Source: a virus
DNA length: 27,021 nucleotides
Direction: 5' to 3' (one strand)
Virus record (IMG/VR): IMGVR_UViG_3300031227_000340
Location: 1-27,021 of that record
The notes under the pieces are model-generated. The model worked only from the letters and a program-made list of their open reading frames with translations. It ran no database searches and was not told the origin of the DNA. Positions 693 through 23,496 of the stretch are shown here, piece by piece. How positions within the stretch are numbered: the first letter of the stretch is position 1; the number at the start of each line of letters is the position of its first letter. The position numbers were made by a program, and so were the translations under genes.

Positions 693-1256
693 TTATCTAT
701 GAGCCGCCTTTCTGATCCTATCATCGACTGACTCCCCAGCGATTCCGGTATTTCTACCAGCTCCAGCATCAGCGGTCGGCTTTGGTGTTACTCCAAATAG
801 TTCCGGGTAACTCTCTTTGAGAGCTGTCCAGTTTACGTTACCGCGCTTGTCAAATAGATCATCTGCAAGTGCGAGTGTGAAGGCTGCTTTTGTGCTACGG
901 CACCCGATCTCCGGCTTTGCCGCTTCTTGGAAGAAGTCAGCCCTCTTTGTTTCTGTTACCAGTTTGTCAGCAATCTCAGTTAATTGCTTTTGTGCATCAC
1001 TTCCAGCTTCTGCTTGTTTCGCTAAATCTCTTAACGATTTCTCCTGATCCTTTCGAGCATCACGCTCTTTGTCAAGTGCGCTGGTTAATCCGCTAGTATG
1101 ATCCTGGTACAGTGTCTTAGCCTCGTCTGTGAGGCCCGCTAGCACGGCCTCCCAAGTTATGGCGTCTGGTGTTGGTGTATCTGGTGTTGGTGGTGTTCCT
1201 TCATCGGCTGAACTTCCCGCTCCGCCTTTGTCGGCTTCATAAACTTTGCGTAACAT
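693..1256 (-). CDS. Phage head scaffolding protein
   Basis: 187 residues from ATG 1256, preceded by AAGGAG with 7-base spacing. An upstream ATG at 1304 lies inside a terminator hairpin and has no ribosome binding site, so it was rejected. The protein has an acidic, low-complexity N-terminus (GGAGSSADEGTPPTPDTP), a long charged helical/coiled-coil centre (about residues 55-115) and a C-terminal part ending GESVDDRIRKAAHR. This is the usual build of GP20-like scaffolds placed directly before the capsid gene. It would direct procapsid assembly and then be removed. No protease motif is visible in it. Confidence 0.75.
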   Translation of the reverse strand: MLRKVYEADKGGAGSSADEGTPPTPDTPTPDAITWEAVLAGLTDEAKTLYQDHTSGLTSALDKERDARKDQEKSLRDLAKQAEAGSDAQKQLTEIADKLVTETKRADFFQEAAKPEIGCRSTKAAFTLALADDLFDKRGNVNWTALKESYPELFGVTPKPTADAGAGRNTGIAGESVDDRIRKAAHR

Positions 1257-6531: not shown

Positions 6532-7200
6532 TTATCCTTGTGACACTTTGTCACTAATAAACAGATTAGGTTGCATCTGCGCTTCGGCTATTCGCTTCTC
6601 GGCTATCTTGAAATATTGTTCATCTATCTCAATCCCGATGAAGTTTCTACCTGTCTGCACGCAAGCCACGCCGGTTGTTCCCGAACCCATGAATGGGTCA
6701 AGGATGGTATCGCCTGGTTGCGTGTAATTTTGAATAACCCAAGTCATTAGTTCTGATGGTTTTTGTGTTGGATGGTATTTTATATCTTTACTGTCCTTTA
6801 TAAAACCTCTGTTTCGTAAAGTGAATTTTCTGGCAACTTTATTAAGAGAACACCATGCCATCTCCACATCAGCAAAAGGCGCTCCATCTTTCATTGAGCC
6901 TAACTTATCCCAAACTAGCCAGCAGTTAGTTGGCGGCAAATAATCTGTAAAATAGTTACCGCCCCAAATAACCTGCATATTTGATAATCTTTGTAATTCA
7001 TAGAAATATTCTTTTGATGGGCGGTTGTCCCATGATACGCTTTCTGCTTTAACGCCGTTTTGAGGGATTGTTCCAAAACTGTTTGAGCCACGCGCCCACT
7101 TTTTCCCATACGGCGGGTCAGTTACCACAGCGTCCACACTCTTGTCAGCCATGCCCTTCATCACTTCTAGGCAATCACCTTGTATTAGTTCAACAGTCAT
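6532..7200 (-). CDS. DNA methyltransferase (N6-adenine or N4-cytosine, beta-type motif order)
   Basis: 222 residues from ATG 7200, which overlaps the terL stop as ATGA, with AAGGAG upstream. Catalytic motif IV DPPY is at 28-31. HPTQKP lies at 143-148, and the AdoMet-binding DPFMGSGTT at 168-176. The order catalytic motif then AdoMet motif is that of the beta class. It modifies phage DNA, probably as protection from host restriction; the target site cannot be read from sequence. A 25-bp stretch of its 3' end (6565-6589) recurs exactly at 18727-18751. Confidence 0.9.
6540..6554. repeat. Palindrome GTGACA-N3-TGTCAC before the portal gene
   Basis: GTGACACTTTGTCAC lies inside the last codons of the methyltransferase, just ahead of the portal ribosome binding site. 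The same 6-base arms occur at 23518-23536, extended there to 8-bp arms. It could form a small RNA hairpin or be a protein site. Confidence 0.4.
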
Positions 7201-8435
7201 CCTTGATAGCTCCTTGCTACCTGCTTCTGTTTCCATTCACGGTTATAGGCATATCGCAACCCGTCAATTAGATGATTAACCTTGTCTACCGGCTTCTTAA
7301 TACTGTTGCCGTCCTTATCTTTTTGCCATTGGTACTGTTGAAACTCCATGATCATATTCACGCAGTTCTTGTCTACAAATATCTTGTTCTGCTGCAACCA
7401 TTGGATCCCATGTAAGATACTATCTGCGCCCTTCTCGGTTGCCAACGCTCTAACGCCATGATTCTTTAATTCTTGTATCGATTTTGGTTCAGCAGAATCG
7501 CAATAGATGTAATCCTGGTCGATCATCCTAATAACTTCTTCTGCAAGTATATCATTTGTCAATCCACGCTCGTATAACTCATCGAAGATATATATTTCCT
7601 TCTTTGCAGCATTCCTAGCTGTTACGAGTACTGCAGCCGGGTCAGCAGCGAATCCGAAGTCAAGGCCATTATGGAATGTGTCATATCGTTTCCTGGTATC
7701 GGATAAGTCAACAACTTTCCAATTCTTGAAGATGACATCACCGAGCGTCCCCCACAGTCCCAAAGTATAAACATTGTAGAAATATTCATCTGTCTCATTC
7801 TCAAGGTCTGCAATGTCCTCTGTTGTCAGATATTCATTATCTTTATAGGTCGTTTTCAGGACGAGTAGTTTGTCAGTATCTTTTACTGTCTGCTCATCGT
7901 CCCAATTCTTGAAATAAGTAGAATAGATCCAATGTGTTTGCAGTATAGGGTTGAAACTCATCGTCAACCGTTTAGGCTTTTCACTCTTACCACGTTGCCG
8001 CTTATATAGTTGCTTTACAGCGTCGTGGTTTGTCTCTGTAGCTTCTTCCACCCATATATCAGTTATAACGCCATTCTCAGGCGTCATTGATTTCACCTTC
8101 TCTACATCATCAAGCCCTGAGAACATAATCTGATAACCATTCGCACAAGTGATTATTAACTCGGACTTATTGATATTGAAGAACTCGCTCAGGCCCCAAT
8201 CACGAATAACCTTGACTATCTCGTTATACACTGAGCGTCTGATAGTTCTGCCAACAGCCCTGCATACCAGGTAATTACGACCACCTGCAAGAACATCCTC
8301 TACTGTACGCTGTGCAAGAAACACTGACTTACCTGAAGACGATCCACCAAAGAATATCTGCGTTCTTTGTGAATCCTTTATGTGCGAGTAATATATTTTA
8401 TTATAAAGGCCAGGATCAATCGTTATCTTTTGCAT
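7197..8435 (-). CDS. terL: Terminase large subunit, PBSX-type
   Basis: 412 residues. ATPase: Walker A GGSSSGKS at residues 30-37 and Walker [10 protein letters not shown] at about 126-134. Nuclease: acidic residues in [12 protein letters not shown] (D259), IYCDSAEP (D313) and HLIDGLRYA (D391). It packages DNA into the head with the portal. It overlaps the small-terminase gene by 20 bases and hands over to the methyltransferase by an ATGA overlap. Complete in length and motifs. Confidence 0.93.
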
Positions 8436-8868: not shown

Positions 8869-10125
8869 TCACTTTTCTATCAATTCCGGCTCTAATCCTG
8901 TCACATTCGCCCATCTTTGTATCGCTACTGCAACGTATGCAGGGCTAATTTCGATTGCTCGACATTTGCGGTGCAGGCGTTCGCAGGCAATGAGGGTGGT
9001 GCCGGAGCCGAGGAATGGGTCAAATATAACTTCGCCTGACTTTGAACTATTACCAATCGCCTTGTTCGGTAACTCAACAGGCTTCATCGTTGGATGATCC
9101 TTGGAGACTTTCGGACGCTCATACTCCCACACAGTATCTTGTTTTCTGTCATCTATAAAATAATGCGCAGCCCCATCTTTCCATCCATAAAGGATGCTTT
9201 CGTGTCTCCAGTGATAATCTTGTCTACCAAATACAAACACGTCTTTTATCCATACAATGCATTCTCTTAACTGTAGCCCAGAGACACTGTTAAGCGCAAT
9301 TCTGAACTGTGTCTCTGGGCGCCCCGGCGGGGCGCACAGGTAATATGCGCCTCCGTTCTTTAGTGGCAATACAGACAAGAACGCAATCAGAAAGGCGTCA
9401 AACTCATCGTCTGTCATCGAATCATTGCTAACCACCAATCCGTCTGTTCTGCGGTTTCGCGCCTTTAAGGACTCTATACTTTCGTTGTCTTGATACGAAA
9501 CGTTATATGGCGGGTCAGTGAATACCATATCCGCCTTCTCTCCGCCCATCACCCTATCAACCACCAACTTATCCGTGCAATCCCCACACACAATCCGATG
9601 CTCACCTAACTGCCACATCTGCCCCGTTTCAACACCCCACTTCTCGCGCAGTTCTTCTGCCTTGTCAATCTGCGGCTCGGCGTCCTCCGGTACTTCTTCC
9701 TCACCAAAGTACAGCCCATTATCCTCCGCCAGCCCGCTCAACATCTCCTGCAATCCAGCCTCGCCAGTCTGGATATTCTGCATCAGGCCGTCAAGCTGCT
9801 GTTTATCAGCCGCTGCCATTGCAGCAATCGGGTCAAGCGTAGTTAGCGCAAGATGTTCCTCTTCTTGTGTTAAGTCAACATATTTCACGGGTACCGGCGT
9901 ATCTTCACCTTCTCGCATTGCAAGCGTTACACGTAAATGCCCGTCAATCATGTTGCCGGTGTTCTGGTTGACTATGACCTCCTGAATCCATCCTATCTCG
10001 TTTAGCGCGCCTTTCATCGCTTCCTGTTGCGGCTTGGGATGAATGCGCCAGTTCATCGGGTTCGCCAGGAACTCGGATGCTGGCAACTCTCCAGATCCTA
10101 TTATTCTATTCTTCCAGTTGGTCAC
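8869..10125 (-). CDS. ParB-domain / DNA methyltransferase fusion
   Basis: 418 residues from GTG 10125, which overlaps the HNH stop and has AGAGAGG five bases upstream; ORF extensions to 10167 lack such a site. An N-terminal ParB/Srx-like domain (about 1-130) has ANPMNWRIHP and the MIDGHLRV box (about 59-66). An acidic linker follows, then a beta-class methyltransferase with DPPYN at 204-208, HPTMKP at about 344-349 and DPFLGSGTT at 369-377. Such fusions are common next to phage terminases and methylate phage DNA. The ParB part may aid DNA recognition. This is the second methyltransferase within 3.5 kb. Confidence 0.9.
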   Translation of the reverse strand: MTNWKNRIIGSGELPASEFLANPMNWRIHPKPQQEAMKGALNEIGWIQEVIVNQNTGNMIDGHLRVTLAMREGEDTPVPVKYVDLTQEEEHLALTTLDPIAAMAAADKQQLDGLMQNIQTGEAGLQEMLSGLAEDNGLYFGEEEVPEDAEPQIDKAEELREKWGVETGQMWQLGEHRIVCGDCTDKLVVDRVMGGEKADMVFTDPPYNVSYQDNESIESLKARNRRTDGLVVSNDSMTDDEFDAFLIAFLSVLPLKNGGAYYLCAPPGRPETQFRIALNSVSGLQLRECIVWIKDVFVFGRQDYHWRHESILYGWKDGAAHYFIDDRKQDTVWEYERPKVSKDHPTMKPVELPNKAIGNSSKSGEVIFDPFLGSGTTLIACERLHRKCRAIEISPAYVAVAIQRWANVTGLEPELIEK

Positions 10126-10419
10126 CACATCCTCTCTTTCGTTATCAGATCCAATCCCTCGTACCACTCCATCATGTTATCCTTGCCGTACCGCTTGCAA
10201 TTCATCTGGAACGCTATCCGCCTGCCCTCGTAACCTTTTGAGTGGAACCAGCGATGACACGAGTTGCAGAGGTGTACCAGGTTGAAACATGCCATTCAGC
10301 TCAGGCTTCCTCCGCATTCTTCTCACAACGGCGTGATGCCAATGTTCGGCTATGTGTCCGCAATTCTCGCAGTCCTCACCCTCGCGGGCTTGCATTGCCT
10401 TGTTATCGTAGCCGTTCAT
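10122..10419 (-). pseudogene. HNH endonuclease with a one-base frameshift
   Basis: ATG 10419 has GGGAG four bases upstream. The first frame reads MNGYDNKAMQAREGEDCENC, then EHWHHAVVRRMRRKPELN. The conserved continuation CFNLVHLCNSCHRWFHSKGY...MNCKRYGKDNMMEWYEG lies in the next frame and ends at TGA 10122. Removing one G from the GG at 10292-10293 joins both into a 98-residue HNH protein with all parts: CxxC, HH, N, CNSCHRWFH. In the frame as given, the ORF instead runs out of the family after PELNG and stops at 10177. Either a sequencing error, a dead gene or a slippage site. Such HNH proteins sit beside terminases and are needed for DNA packaging in some phages. Confidence 0.8.
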
Positions 10420-15694: not shown

Positions 15695-16312
15695 CTAAAA
15701 ATATATTCCATTCATCATTTCGTGCAGTTTCACGACAAGGTTTACGTCATTTTCTACGTACTTCCGTAATGTCTCTGCGTCCATGTCTTTCACTTGAGAA
15801 CCTTCCAAATCAGGAAGTGGGTTGTCGATACCGTAACGCTTGCATACCCATTTAAGCCCCTTAGCCTGTCCCCAGTTATAAAGTATTCCCATTAAGTCAC
15901 ATGTTGGCTCTGTCTGATATTTAGCCAGGTGTGGCCTAATCGGGACCTCGATACCCAATGCGAATGAACGGCGGAGAAGAAATGGCAAGTCAAAACCAAT
16001 GATGTTGTACCCGCATGAATGGGCGTTTGTTTCGGCAAACCTATTCCAAAAGAATATAATGACATCTCTTTCCGTTGCCTCGTTTCTGTTAATAGAAATA
16101 ATTTCTTTTCCAGAAACCGACAATCCAATAGCCGCAACTTTGCCAGTGTCCGGGTCGAGTGCTGCCTTCTCCGCTTGCTCTATTCTTTTGGTTACGATGT
16201 ATGCTGCTATCTTTTCCGCGTCCTTATAATTGGCTGGCGCGGTTGGTTCAGGAAGCATGTCAATGGCCTCCTGGTTCGCTGTTGTCTCAATATCGAAAAA
16301 TAATGTGTCCAT
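15695..16312 (-). CDS. DEDDy 3'-5' exonuclease (copy 2)
   Basis: 205 residues. Exonuclease motifs: FDIETT (D7, E9), GYNIIGFDLPFLLRR (D108) and YVENDV (Y185, D189), giving a DEDDy active site as in the PolB-type exonuclease family. No polymerase domain is attached. It is clearly paralogous to the gene at 20723-21334, with near-identical blocks such as NKRIEQ/TKRIEQAEKAALDPDTG and LKWVCKRYGIDNPLP, but differs in the 68-90 region. It sits between two recombination repeats (16316-16383 and 15649-15681), so it may have arrived by module exchange. Confidence 0.85.
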   Translation of the reverse strand: MDTLFFDIETTANQEAIDMLPEPTAPANYKDAEKIAAYIVTKRIEQAEKAALDPDTGKVAAIGLSVSGKEIISINRNEATERDVIIFFWNRFAETNAHSCGYNIIGFDLPFLLRRSFALGIEVPIRPHLAKYQTEPTCDLMGILYNWGQAKGLKWVCKRYGIDNPLPDLEGSQVKDMDAETLRKYVENDVNLVVKLHEMMNGIYF

Positions 16313-20722: not shown

Positions 20723-21334
20723 CTAAAAATATATTCCATTCATGCGCTCATATAACTGTACGCACAAGTTAACGTCGTTCTCTACATATGCCTTCAGTGT
20801 ACCAGCGTCCATACCCGAAACCTGCGAACCTTCCAAACCAGGAAGTGGGTTGTCGATACCGTACCGTTTACATACCCATTTCAACGATTTCGCCTGTCCC
20901 CAGTTATAGAGTATCGCCATCAGGTCGCAGGTTGGATCTGTGCGGTATTTTGCTAACACTGGACGTAATGGAACTGCGATTCCTAAATCGAACGACCTGC
21001 GGAGTAAGAATGGAAGATCAAATCCGATAATGTTGTATCCGCATGATTGCCCGTTAGATTCTGCAAACAAATCCCAAAACAGCTCGATAATATACTTTTC
21101 AGAATATGTGGCGTTGACAATTCCCGAGTGTAGTTTTCCCGCATCCATAAACCCAATAGCAACCACCGTGCCTGTATCTGGGTCTAGCGCAGCTTTCTCT
21201 GCTTGCTCAATTCGCTTGTTTGCTATACATGCCAAAATCTTGTCCTCGTCTTTATAATTGGACGGGGCTGCTGGTTCTGGCAACATTTGTATCGCCGTTG
21301 GATCTGCTGTTGTCTCAATATCGAAAAATAACAT
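20723..21334 (-). CDS. DEDDy 3'-5' exonuclease (copy 1)
   Basis: 203 residues; ATG 21334 with GAGAGGAG upstream. Motifs: FDIETT (D5, E7), GYNIIGFDLPFLLRR (D106) and YVENDV (Y183, D187). It belongs to the same stand-alone PolB-type exonuclease family as the gene at 15695-16312 and shares long identical blocks with it. Likely role: DNA end processing for recombination or proofreading in trans. The gene following it encodes the KPGAEKL protein. Confidence 0.85.
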   Translation of the reverse strand: MLFFDIETTADPTAIQMLPEPAAPSNYKDEDKILACIANKRIEQAEKAALDPDTGTVVAIGFMDAGKLHSGIVNATYSEKYIIELFWDLFAESNGQSCGYNIIGFDLPFLLRRSFDLGIAVPLRPVLAKYRTDPTCDLMAILYNWGQAKSLKWVCKRYGIDNPLPGLEGSQVSGMDAGTLKAYVENDVNLCVQLYERMNGIYF

Positions 21335-22091: not shown

Positions 22092-22106
22092 CTACAATCA
22101 TTGTAG
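22092..22106. promoter_or_regulatory. Palindromic operator over the early -10
   Basis: CTACAATCATTGTAG, a perfect 7-bp inverted repeat around one base. It covers the -10 (TACAAT) and the region just downstream, where a repressor would block initiation. The RHH protein encoded next is the obvious candidate binder. Confidence 0.65.
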
Positions 22107-22128
22107 CAAGTTTATACAACAATGTCAA
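22100..22128 (-). promoter_or_regulatory. Consensus early promoter
   Basis: Minus-strand TTGACA (22128-22123), 17-base spacer, TACAAT (22105-22100), about 39 bases before the RHH start. The boxes and spacing equal those of the ncRNA promoter at 22538-22566. Confidence 0.9.
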
Positions 22129-22344: not shown

Positions 22345-22531
22345 TTAAACGCAACCACCGCCCCGAAGGACGGCGATTGGACCAGCTTTATAATAGACCT
22401 GGTCACTACATGCCCTACCATATAGGCAGGGGGTTGAAACCGGCAGGCGGGATTTGAACCCGCTTGAATTTGTGTGTTCCCACCACACCGCTGCCGGCGG
22501 TCTGGATCGCCAGACCTATCACTTGCTGGTC
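22345..22531 (-). ncRNA. Promoter-driven structured RNA of about 185 nt containing a tRNA-like element
   Basis: Starts about seven bases after a perfect promoter -10. In order it folds as: hairpin 22516-22499 (GGTCTGG/CCAGACC, 4-base loop); tRNA-like element 22497-22440; hairpin 22431-22413 (7 bp with one G.U); hairpin 22404-22380 (GACCAG/CTGGTC); and hairpin 22375-22356 (8 bp with two G.U, TTCG tetraloop). No open frame with a ribosome binding site runs through it. The last hairpin may end transcription, though the T-run after it is weak. Confidence 0.65.
22440..22497 (-). tRNA. tRNA-like element lacking a D-arm, anticodon-loop GGG
   Basis: 58 nt. Acceptor CCGGCAG (22497-22491) pairs perfectly with CTGCCGG (22446-22440). 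Two bases (CG) then lead straight to a 5-bp anticodon stem GTGTG/CACAC (22488-22472) with a 7-base loop GTGGGAA: T at the U33 position, GGG as anticodon (Pro), A at 37. An 8-base variable stretch follows. The T-arm GCGGG-TTCAAAT-CCCGC (22463-22447) is fully conserved. No D-arm can be formed, position 32 is G, and no CCA is encoded. It may be a degenerate tRNA or a tRNA mimic; aminoacylation is doubtful. Confidence 0.65.
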
Positions 22532-22537
22532 AAATTC

Positions 22538-22566
22538 ATTGTACTCTACCTCCCCTCCCGTGTCAA
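22538..22566 (-). promoter_or_regulatory. Consensus promoter of the tRNA-like RNA
   Basis: Minus-strand TTGACA (22566-22561), 17-base spacer, TACAAT (22543-22538). One of the strongest promoters in the window and not followed by a protein gene. Confidence 0.9.
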
Positions 22567-22569
22567 GTC

Positions 22570-22597
22570 GGTTGCCCCAGCCGAAGCCAGGGCAACC
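22570..22597 (-). terminator. Stable hairpin with TTCG tetraloop after the metallophosphoesterase gene
   Basis: A 12-bp stem (GGTTGCCCTGGC with GCTGGGGCAACC, two G.U pairs) closes a TTCG loop, 23 bases after the stop at 22621 and three bases before the next -35. No T-run follows, so it may be a weak terminator, an RNA 3'-end stabiliser or a Rho-assisted end. Confidence 0.6.
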
Positions 22598-22620: not shown

Positions 22621-23496
22621 CTAAATAATATTCTCCCAATCCGTGAATGGCCACTTACCGAACGGATGCGCAACGCCATTCTGTAACATCGTGAATCCGT
22701 TGGTCATATTAGGCATTTTATTATCATCTAGCATAACGTAGGCAAGCTTTTTGGAATCGACCATTGCGCCGTTATCTACGACAACAAACCTCTTATACTT
22801 ATCCCAGCCAATCGCTAGATGGTGTTGGTGGTGACTAATAATATTCATCTGGAATTTGTTAGCTAGTTCTCCAGCAGCTGTCAACTGATTAACGCTGTAA
22901 TTAGATGAGTGCGTTACCCGCCAGGGATACTCGGCTGGTGTATCAATCACGCACCATCCCCAATTTGAGTAATGGCACTTATCAGACGAGGTTATCATGC
23001 CGAATATGTCAGCTTCGTCAAACTCTCCGCCTGCCCATTTCTGCATCCGGCGGTCGTGGTTGCCCATGATGAAGCGTATCTCGTCGAACCATTCTACCCA
23101 CTCGCTAATTACAACTCTAGCAGCGTCACGTTCCTGTGCCCATGTTATCGGCTTGATAACCTGTTCATACTTACTGAAGCTGTCCAGCGTGAATGTATCA
23201 CCAGCCACAATTAATTTCTTGACATTTTGTTTTCGTGCTACCGTCAATAACAGGTGCATGAAGTCATAATCTGTGCATGGTAGGTGAACATCACCTGTTA
23301 TCATCCAATCACCTGATAATCGCCAGGGATCACCGAAATCAATCTCAAACAAATTGCGATGTTTGTTCTCTTTTTTATAACGGGCAATAAGCCCAGCTAC
23401 TTTACCTCTTGTTAATCCGTGCTTGCGTGCTAAATCACTGTATGAATATCCAGCGTGGTTAAGTGATAGTAATAGTTCGCCTGTTATATTGTTCAG
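22621..23496 (-). CDS. HTH-metallophosphoesterase fusion with a non-ATG start
   Basis: Residues 49-291 are a calcineurin-type metallophosphoesterase: GDVHLP, VAGDTF, MGNHDRR, and SHHQHH near residue 222, all metal ligands present. The frame continues upstream of the TTG at 23352 for 48 more codons without a stop and encodes an HTH of resolvase type (LNHAGYSYSDLARKHGLTRG then KVAGLIARYKK). The first possible start in this frame is CTG 23496, eight bases after GGAGG. The ATG at 23500 is in another frame and stops after 13 codons. So either CTG initiation or a frameshift is needed. An HTH-linked phosphoesterase may be a DNA-guided nuclease or phosphatase. Own promoter at 23555-23583. Confidence 0.75.
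   Translation of the reverse strand: MNNITGELLLSLNHAGYSYSDLARKHGLTRGKVAGLIARYKKENKHRNLFEIDFGDPWRLSGDWMITGDVHLPCTDYDFMHLLLTVARKQNVKKLIVAGDTFTLDSFSKYEQVIKPITWAQERDAARVVISEWVEWFDEIRFIMGNHDRRMQKWAGGEFDEADIFGMITSSDKCHYSNWGWCVIDTPAEYPWRVTHSSNYSVNQLTAAGELANKFQMNIISHHQHHLAIGWDKYKRFVVVDNGAMVDSKKLAYVMLDDNKMPNMTNGFTMLQNGVAHPFGKWPFTDWENII

Follow-up and report, generated by a model that had tools for sequence, protein, structure and literature searches.

A phage RNA gene with a tRNA-like core and its relatives in mobile DNA: a tRNA-elbow RNA family

The RNA locus and its surroundings

The window analysed here, a virus record of 27,021 bases, carries its main genes on the minus strand. The RNA gene described below is surrounded by phage genes for an endolysin (GH25), terminase, portal and head protein; genes for a single-strand-binding protein, a replication initiator, DNA methyltransferases and 3'-5' exonucleases were also annotated. 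Two DNA methyltransferase genes lie near the terminase gene (6532-7236 and 8869-10167, minus strand), the second with a ParB-like part, and the PolB-like 3'-5' exonuclease gene is present in two copies that are 72% identical (15695-16312 and 20723-21334, minus strand). Relatives of the exonuclease occur in IMG/VR phages and in Chloroflexota/Anaerolineae MAGs, and on this basis the phage probably infects an anaerobic Chloroflexota bacterium. The metallophosphoesterase gene directly upstream of the RNA gene found no relatives among viral contigs when used as a query. The RNA gene is located just upstream of the early operon promoter (22128..22100, minus strand), the hexamers and spacing of which are identical to those of its own promoter. 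The features of the locus, all on the minus strand, are listed below; L002 denotes a related contig.

22621..23352, minus: metallophosphoesterase gene directly upstream of the RNA gene (Pfam PF00149, PHROG 221/7339)
22570..22597, minus: TTCG-tetraloop hairpin (GGTTGCCCTGGC TTCG GCTGGGGCAACC) after the metallophosphoesterase gene, from sequence; 88% identical at the L002 counterpart
22538..22566, minus: promoter TTGACA-17-TACAAT, from sequence; spacing kept in L002 (TTGCAT-17-TATATT)
22352..22531, minus: predicted RNA of ~180 nt, from the inferred start to the terminator hairpin (promoter position and fold)
22525..22531, minus: 5' strand of the closing stem, GACCAGC, 7 bp (fold)
22499..22516, minus: hairpin 1, GGTCTGG CGAT CCAGACC (fold)
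22440..22497, minus: tRNA-like core with acceptor of 7 bp, CG, D-like hairpin, 8-nt linker and T arm, lacking anticodon arm and CCA (fold; match of model R2)
22472..22488, minus: D-like hairpin GTGTG GTGGGAA CACAC, originally read as an anticodon arm (18-nt exact match to contig L118, where it has the D-arm position)
22464..22471, minus: 8-nt linker AAATTCAA, at the place of the relatives' hypervariable domain (comparison with relatives)
22447..22463, minus: T arm GCGGG TTCAAAT CCCGC (canonical T-loop; stem covaries in relatives)
22413..22431, minus: hairpin 3, CCCTGCC TATAT GGTAGGG (fold)
22380..22386, minus: 3' strand of the closing stem, GCTGGTC (fold)
22352..22379, minus: terminator-like TTCG hairpin, from sequence; 93% identical in L002

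The original prediction placed here a stand-alone gene for a structured RNA containing a tRNA-like core, and this was borne out by the promoter, the fold and the lack of a protein gene. The promoter was found on the minus strand (22566..22538, 11/12). No convincing protein gene was present across 22345-22540, where two ORFs of 79 and 56 amino acids overlap the hairpins. The row of hairpins was recovered as described, with a TTCG hairpin on each side of the block (22570-22597 and 22352-22379). The 196-nt fold, at −89.4 kcal/mol, was more stable than shuffled sequences, which averaged −63.9 (z −5.49; 0/200 shuffles reached the native value), and its 7-bp closing stem GACCAGC/GCTGGTC begins at the predicted transcription start. 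A pairing of GAATTTG, near the promoter, with CAAATTC in the linker was dropped, as GAATTT precedes this start. In the window phage the hairpin at 22352-22379 has no clean U-tract (GCGTTTAATG), and its equivalent downstream hairpin in L002 precedes CTTTTTAT; termination at this hairpin in the window phage is plausible but weak.

L002 is the sole syntenic relative of the window locus and the only match obtained with alignment A3 as query. Both TTCG hairpins (88% and 93%) and the promoter spacing are kept there, with a metallophosphoesterase gene before the RNA and an integrase gene after it, and the RNA between the hairpins is unrelated to that of the window. This other structured RNA (L002 6466-6620) has a z of −3.2 and no Rfam match. 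The two metallophosphoesterases, each encoded directly before the RNA cassette (window 22621-23352, L002 5486-6376), showed no significant BLASTP similarity. Compared in this way, the locus behaves like a moron, a promoter-gene-terminator cassette the contents of which are swapped. Since L002 holds a different RNA inside the same hairpins, function may belong to the locus and not to the core. A tRNA or tRNA 3'-half, probably an attP, was also found in L002 (8025-8114, minus strand), adjoining the integrase gene, and in contig L003 (4511-4527, minus strand).

A family of RNAs with acceptor, D-like hairpin and T arm

Folded alone, the 58-nt core had an energy of −26.2 kcal/mol (z −3.1). Its three arms agree with the original prediction, which named them acceptor, anticodon and T arm and called the element D-armless; the names of the arms were changed by comparison with relatives. 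An exact 18-mer, GCGGTGTGGTGGGAACAC, is common to the core and to L118, an Anaerolineaceae MAG contig that is 99.98% identical to the viral contig L144 across 9,375 bases. In L118 an acceptor strand precedes it, and further arms, a T arm and then the other acceptor strand come after it. In viral contigs, a scan for the 15-mer GTGTGGTGGGAACAC returned 43 loci, and the full strict architecture of acceptor and T arm was found at 8 of 42 testable hits, against 0.016 expected from resampled flanks. Four further members (L139, L163, L164 and L165) were recovered by a covariance model. Model R2, built without the window, detected the window core with 50 bits (E 9.5e-11); with the family models, members scored 43-107 bits and ordinary tRNAs at most ~33 bits.

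At least 15 relatives were identified in this way, in contigs of other phages and of Anaerolineae MAGs, and in one element that is probably integrative. Their common architecture consists of a 7-bp acceptor, CG, the hairpin GTGTG-GTGGGAA-CACRC, a variable domain, a 5-bp T stem and a TTCRAAT-type loop, and no CCA. The hairpin begins 2 nt after the acceptor, and variable sequence, in the place of an anticodon arm, separates it from the T arm in at least 15 relatives; by position it is therefore a D arm, and the presumed anticodon GGG is no anticodon. Hence a decoy for anticodon-cutting nucleases, as once suggested, falls, while the more general idea of a tRNA mimic survives. The hairpin loop is GTGGGAA in nearly all relatives, and its near-invariance in the viral ones is partly a product of the exact-match seed. 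Members found by model in MAGs (G216 twice, G100 and G341) are free of this bias and include hairpin variants such as GCGTG/CACGC; the model-found MAG members L187, L188, L168 and L199 likewise show hairpin variants together with covariation. Three contigs were left out of the member count, namely L130 (28-30 bits, acceptor unpaired), L132 and L176 (hairpin only). L132 carries at 8199-8227 (minus strand) a 9-bp hairpin, GCCTGTGTG-GTGGGAA-CACACAGGC, with the family loop and neither acceptor nor T arm, and L189 carries at 999-1158 (minus strand) a copy of the L118-type RNA that has lost its 5' half and kept the variable arm and T arm.

The window core has the 7-bp acceptor directly stacked on the 5-bp T stem, the TTCRAAT-type loop, the CG linker and the exact GTGTG-GTGGGAA-CACRC hairpin. 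It departs from the usual family form in its central domain, which measures 41-150 nt in the relatives and is reduced to the 8-nt linker in the window. The hypervariable domain is a usual and non-defining feature of the family, and the window copy is an extreme, minimal member: the sole one with an 8-nt linker and the sole one seen inside a larger closed structure. That the RNA is real and belongs to this family is very likely. The core has C8-G9 in place of U8-A9, so its elbow may not pack as in tRNA.

Compensatory changes, which the original prediction had named as a check, were found in the acceptor, D-like and T stems. Members were selected partly by pairing. In alignment A4, 98.5% of cells were paired and 29 were double-changed, a result obtained in 0/500 shuffles; alignment A5, without the window, contained 49 double-changed cells. 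The RNAs of L144 and L188 are ~91% identical, and their 10-13 kb stretches do not match elsewhere; the differences comprise three compensatory T-stem pairs and a change of U.G to C-G, and the central domain differs at one position. L188 adjoins FtsK-like and MarR/HTH genes and may, judging from these neighbours, be an integrative element. Conversely, the flanks of L187 and L144 are 88-97% identical and their RNAs are different. The RNAs of L139 and L164 are 94% identical, more than the DNA on either side of them (70-88%), and differ by one compensatory acceptor pair. From these comparisons of sequence, the family RNA is under selection, mobile between elements and located in accessory regions. 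Most relatives start a few to ~150 nt behind an ORF.

No shared protein gene adjoining all members and no PADLOC defence family common to their neighbourhoods were found, and encoded CCA follows no member. The cellular genomes sampled covered the class Anaerolineae, Chloroflexota, and the phyla to which two genomes of Verrucomicrobia and Bacteroidota type belong; at E 1e-6, model searches found no member in the phylum of the Puniceicoccaceae locus (241 genomes) or in that of the Rhodothermaceae locus (247 genomes). The locus DNA matched nothing in the phage collection, no member was recognised among isolate phages with two members as queries, and exact patterns based on the anticodon-arm reading gave no match. 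A relaxed TGGGAA-N17-T-arm pattern was rejected, none of its 57 hits being a relative. No description of a tRNA-elbow RNA family was found in the open-access subset of the literature. The family, which moves between phages and other mobile DNA, is apparently unrecognised.

Other tRNA-like sequences were met during the searches. Four contigs (L059 14305, L068 3540, L087 7777 on the minus strand and L101 5172) contain an extra tRNA-like RNA that ARAGORN did not call, with ordinary tRNA genes nearby; in these RNAs a conserved AAGGGCCC.CAC ... GGTGGGAAT hairpin replaces the anticodon region, and they may form a second group of tRNA mimics devoid of an anticodon. L008 contains at 8076-8152 (plus strand) a tRNA-like sequence with an ACCA end and an oversized loop in the anticodon region, also uncalled by ARAGORN.

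Possible roles of the RNA

By sequence comparison, the core is part of a mobile-element RNA family with an acceptor, a nearly fixed D-like hairpin and a T arm, together the "elbow", and with a hypervariable domain for the anticodon arm; architecture, covariation, membership and exchange in accessory regions are established at this level. In tRNA biology, an intact 12-bp acceptor-T stack and the T loop form the recognition target of bacterial RNase P and of elbow-binding factors. This stack is present in the window core, and by analogy the RNA would likely be a substrate of host RNase P and of 3' processing, and its elbow a likely ligand for elbow-binding tRNA factors. Having no anticodon arm, the core is unable to decode, and variation in the discriminator base and in the acceptor pairs, together with the missing CCA, argues against one common charged tRNA or amino acid.

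We tentatively favour, with a probability of roughly 0.4, a moron-type accessory RNA that acts as a tRNA-elbow mimic. Such a mimic would occupy or mislead a tRNA-binding factor of the host or of a rival element, and the exchangeable central domain, where present, would add a second specificity differing between phages; as no shared partner protein was found, host factors are the likely targets. In a bolder form of this proposal, which we hold to be rather unlikely, the fixed elbow would be a handle for host factors and the exchangeable domains would serve as RNA weapons or shields in anti-defence and inter-element competition, the window copy being a minimal, self-transcribed form.

The data are almost as compatible with a role in regulation or RNA processing as with elbow mimicry. 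In a tRNA-scaffolded regulatory RNA, the elbow would serve only 5'/3' processing and stability, and the central domain or outer hairpins would regulate mRNAs. The position of most relatives a few to ~150 nt behind an ORF is expected of excised RNAs, the central domain of L144 and L188 is almost unchanged while the T stem changes, and in the window the early promoter comes shortly after the RNA. However, central domains showed no long complementarity to their own contigs when examined as antisense, and the window copy has no central domain; we regard this role as rather unlikely. The conserved 12-bp stack, the location right behind ORFs and the absence of identity elements would also suit a simpler element, a punctuation signal at which RNase P cuts phage transcripts, the remainder being passive. 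This would leave unexplained the fixed D-like hairpin, the near-constant central domain across unrelated elements and the window RNA's own promoter, and it appears improbable.

Two readings that start from an ordinary tRNA have very little probability. A D-armless tRNA-Pro(GGG) active in translation, the anatomy first proposed, is favoured by the 7-nt loop, in which T33 and GGG are correctly spaced, and the metazoan-mitochondrial mode of ARAGORN gave an overlapping D-replacement tRNA-Pro(ggg), with a different acceptor. Nevertheless, the loop is kept across diverse acceptor stems and discriminator bases with extra sequence following it, a pattern that fits a D arm, and A73 and CCA are absent. 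Equally improbable is a degenerate tRNA gene or an attP copy of the 3' end of a host tRNA. Temperate relatives do carry tRNAs or tRNA 3' halves that are likely attP sites (L002 8025-8114, L003 4511-4527), but the acceptor is intact on both strands, as are the D-like arm and the T arm, and these elements covary among the relatives; none of the relatives carries a normal tRNA here, and the D-arm motif (≤1 mismatch) was absent from four related host assemblies and in G013 was found only at the RNA itself.

Anticodon-less tRNA-shaped RNAs escape tRNA finders, and the window RNA has no Rfam family. Even so, its family shows covariation, is present in at least 15 mobile elements and is exchanged in the manner of an arms-race gene. 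Were the function confirmed, phages would exploit the tRNA elbow itself and not decoding, and the targets would be indicated by the central domains that are exchanged.

Comparison with known RNA classes

ARAGORN and Rfam at curated thresholds, including the RF00005 cloverleaf, yielded nothing in the window, and a low Rfam threshold gave only weak matches, all below gathering scores; folds from the mitochondrial modes of ARAGORN were inconsistent and were set aside. The core ends in the tail TTTCAACC and has no CCA, a weak criterion by itself as just 13 of 34 host tRNAs end in CCA, and the tails of the relatives vary. With G3-U70 and a tag reading frame also lacking, the RNA belongs neither to the canonical tRNAs nor to the tmRNAs, as had been predicted.

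The tRNA-like domain of tmRNA (RF00023) resembles the core in having an acceptor and T arm with an insert replacing the anticodon arm, although its match in the window was limited to 17 nt of the T arm (15.5 bits, far below the gathering score). Unlike tmRNA, which has a stemless D region, the window core has a 5-bp D-like stem, and its third pair is G-C instead of G3-U70; the family RNA, moreover, has no reading frame, an insert of 8-150 nt (8 in the window) and a predicted transcript of its own. The mascRNA/menRNA class (RF01684; 19.5 bits, E 0.35) also consists of tRNA-like RNAs, of the 56-nt class, without a proper anticodon arm, but these are eukaryotic and cut from a long RNA, and no sequence kinship with the window core was shown. 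YrlA-type bacterial Y RNA carries a tRNA-like module; the window core differs in having a real acceptor stem, no Ro60/TROVE protein was present among the annotated window genes, and no Rfam match reached the gathering score.

Evasion of tRNA-cutting defence has been described for phage tRNAs that are complete and decode, some of them with changes in the anticodon loop (PMC10264068, PMC11555353). The window RNA is likewise tRNA-shaped, phage-borne and possibly involved in conflict with the host, but its core has no anticodon. Noncanonical tRNAs lacking a D or T arm still decode (reviewed in PMC7609411); they too miss an arm of the cloverleaf, and in the window core the missing arm is the decoding arm.
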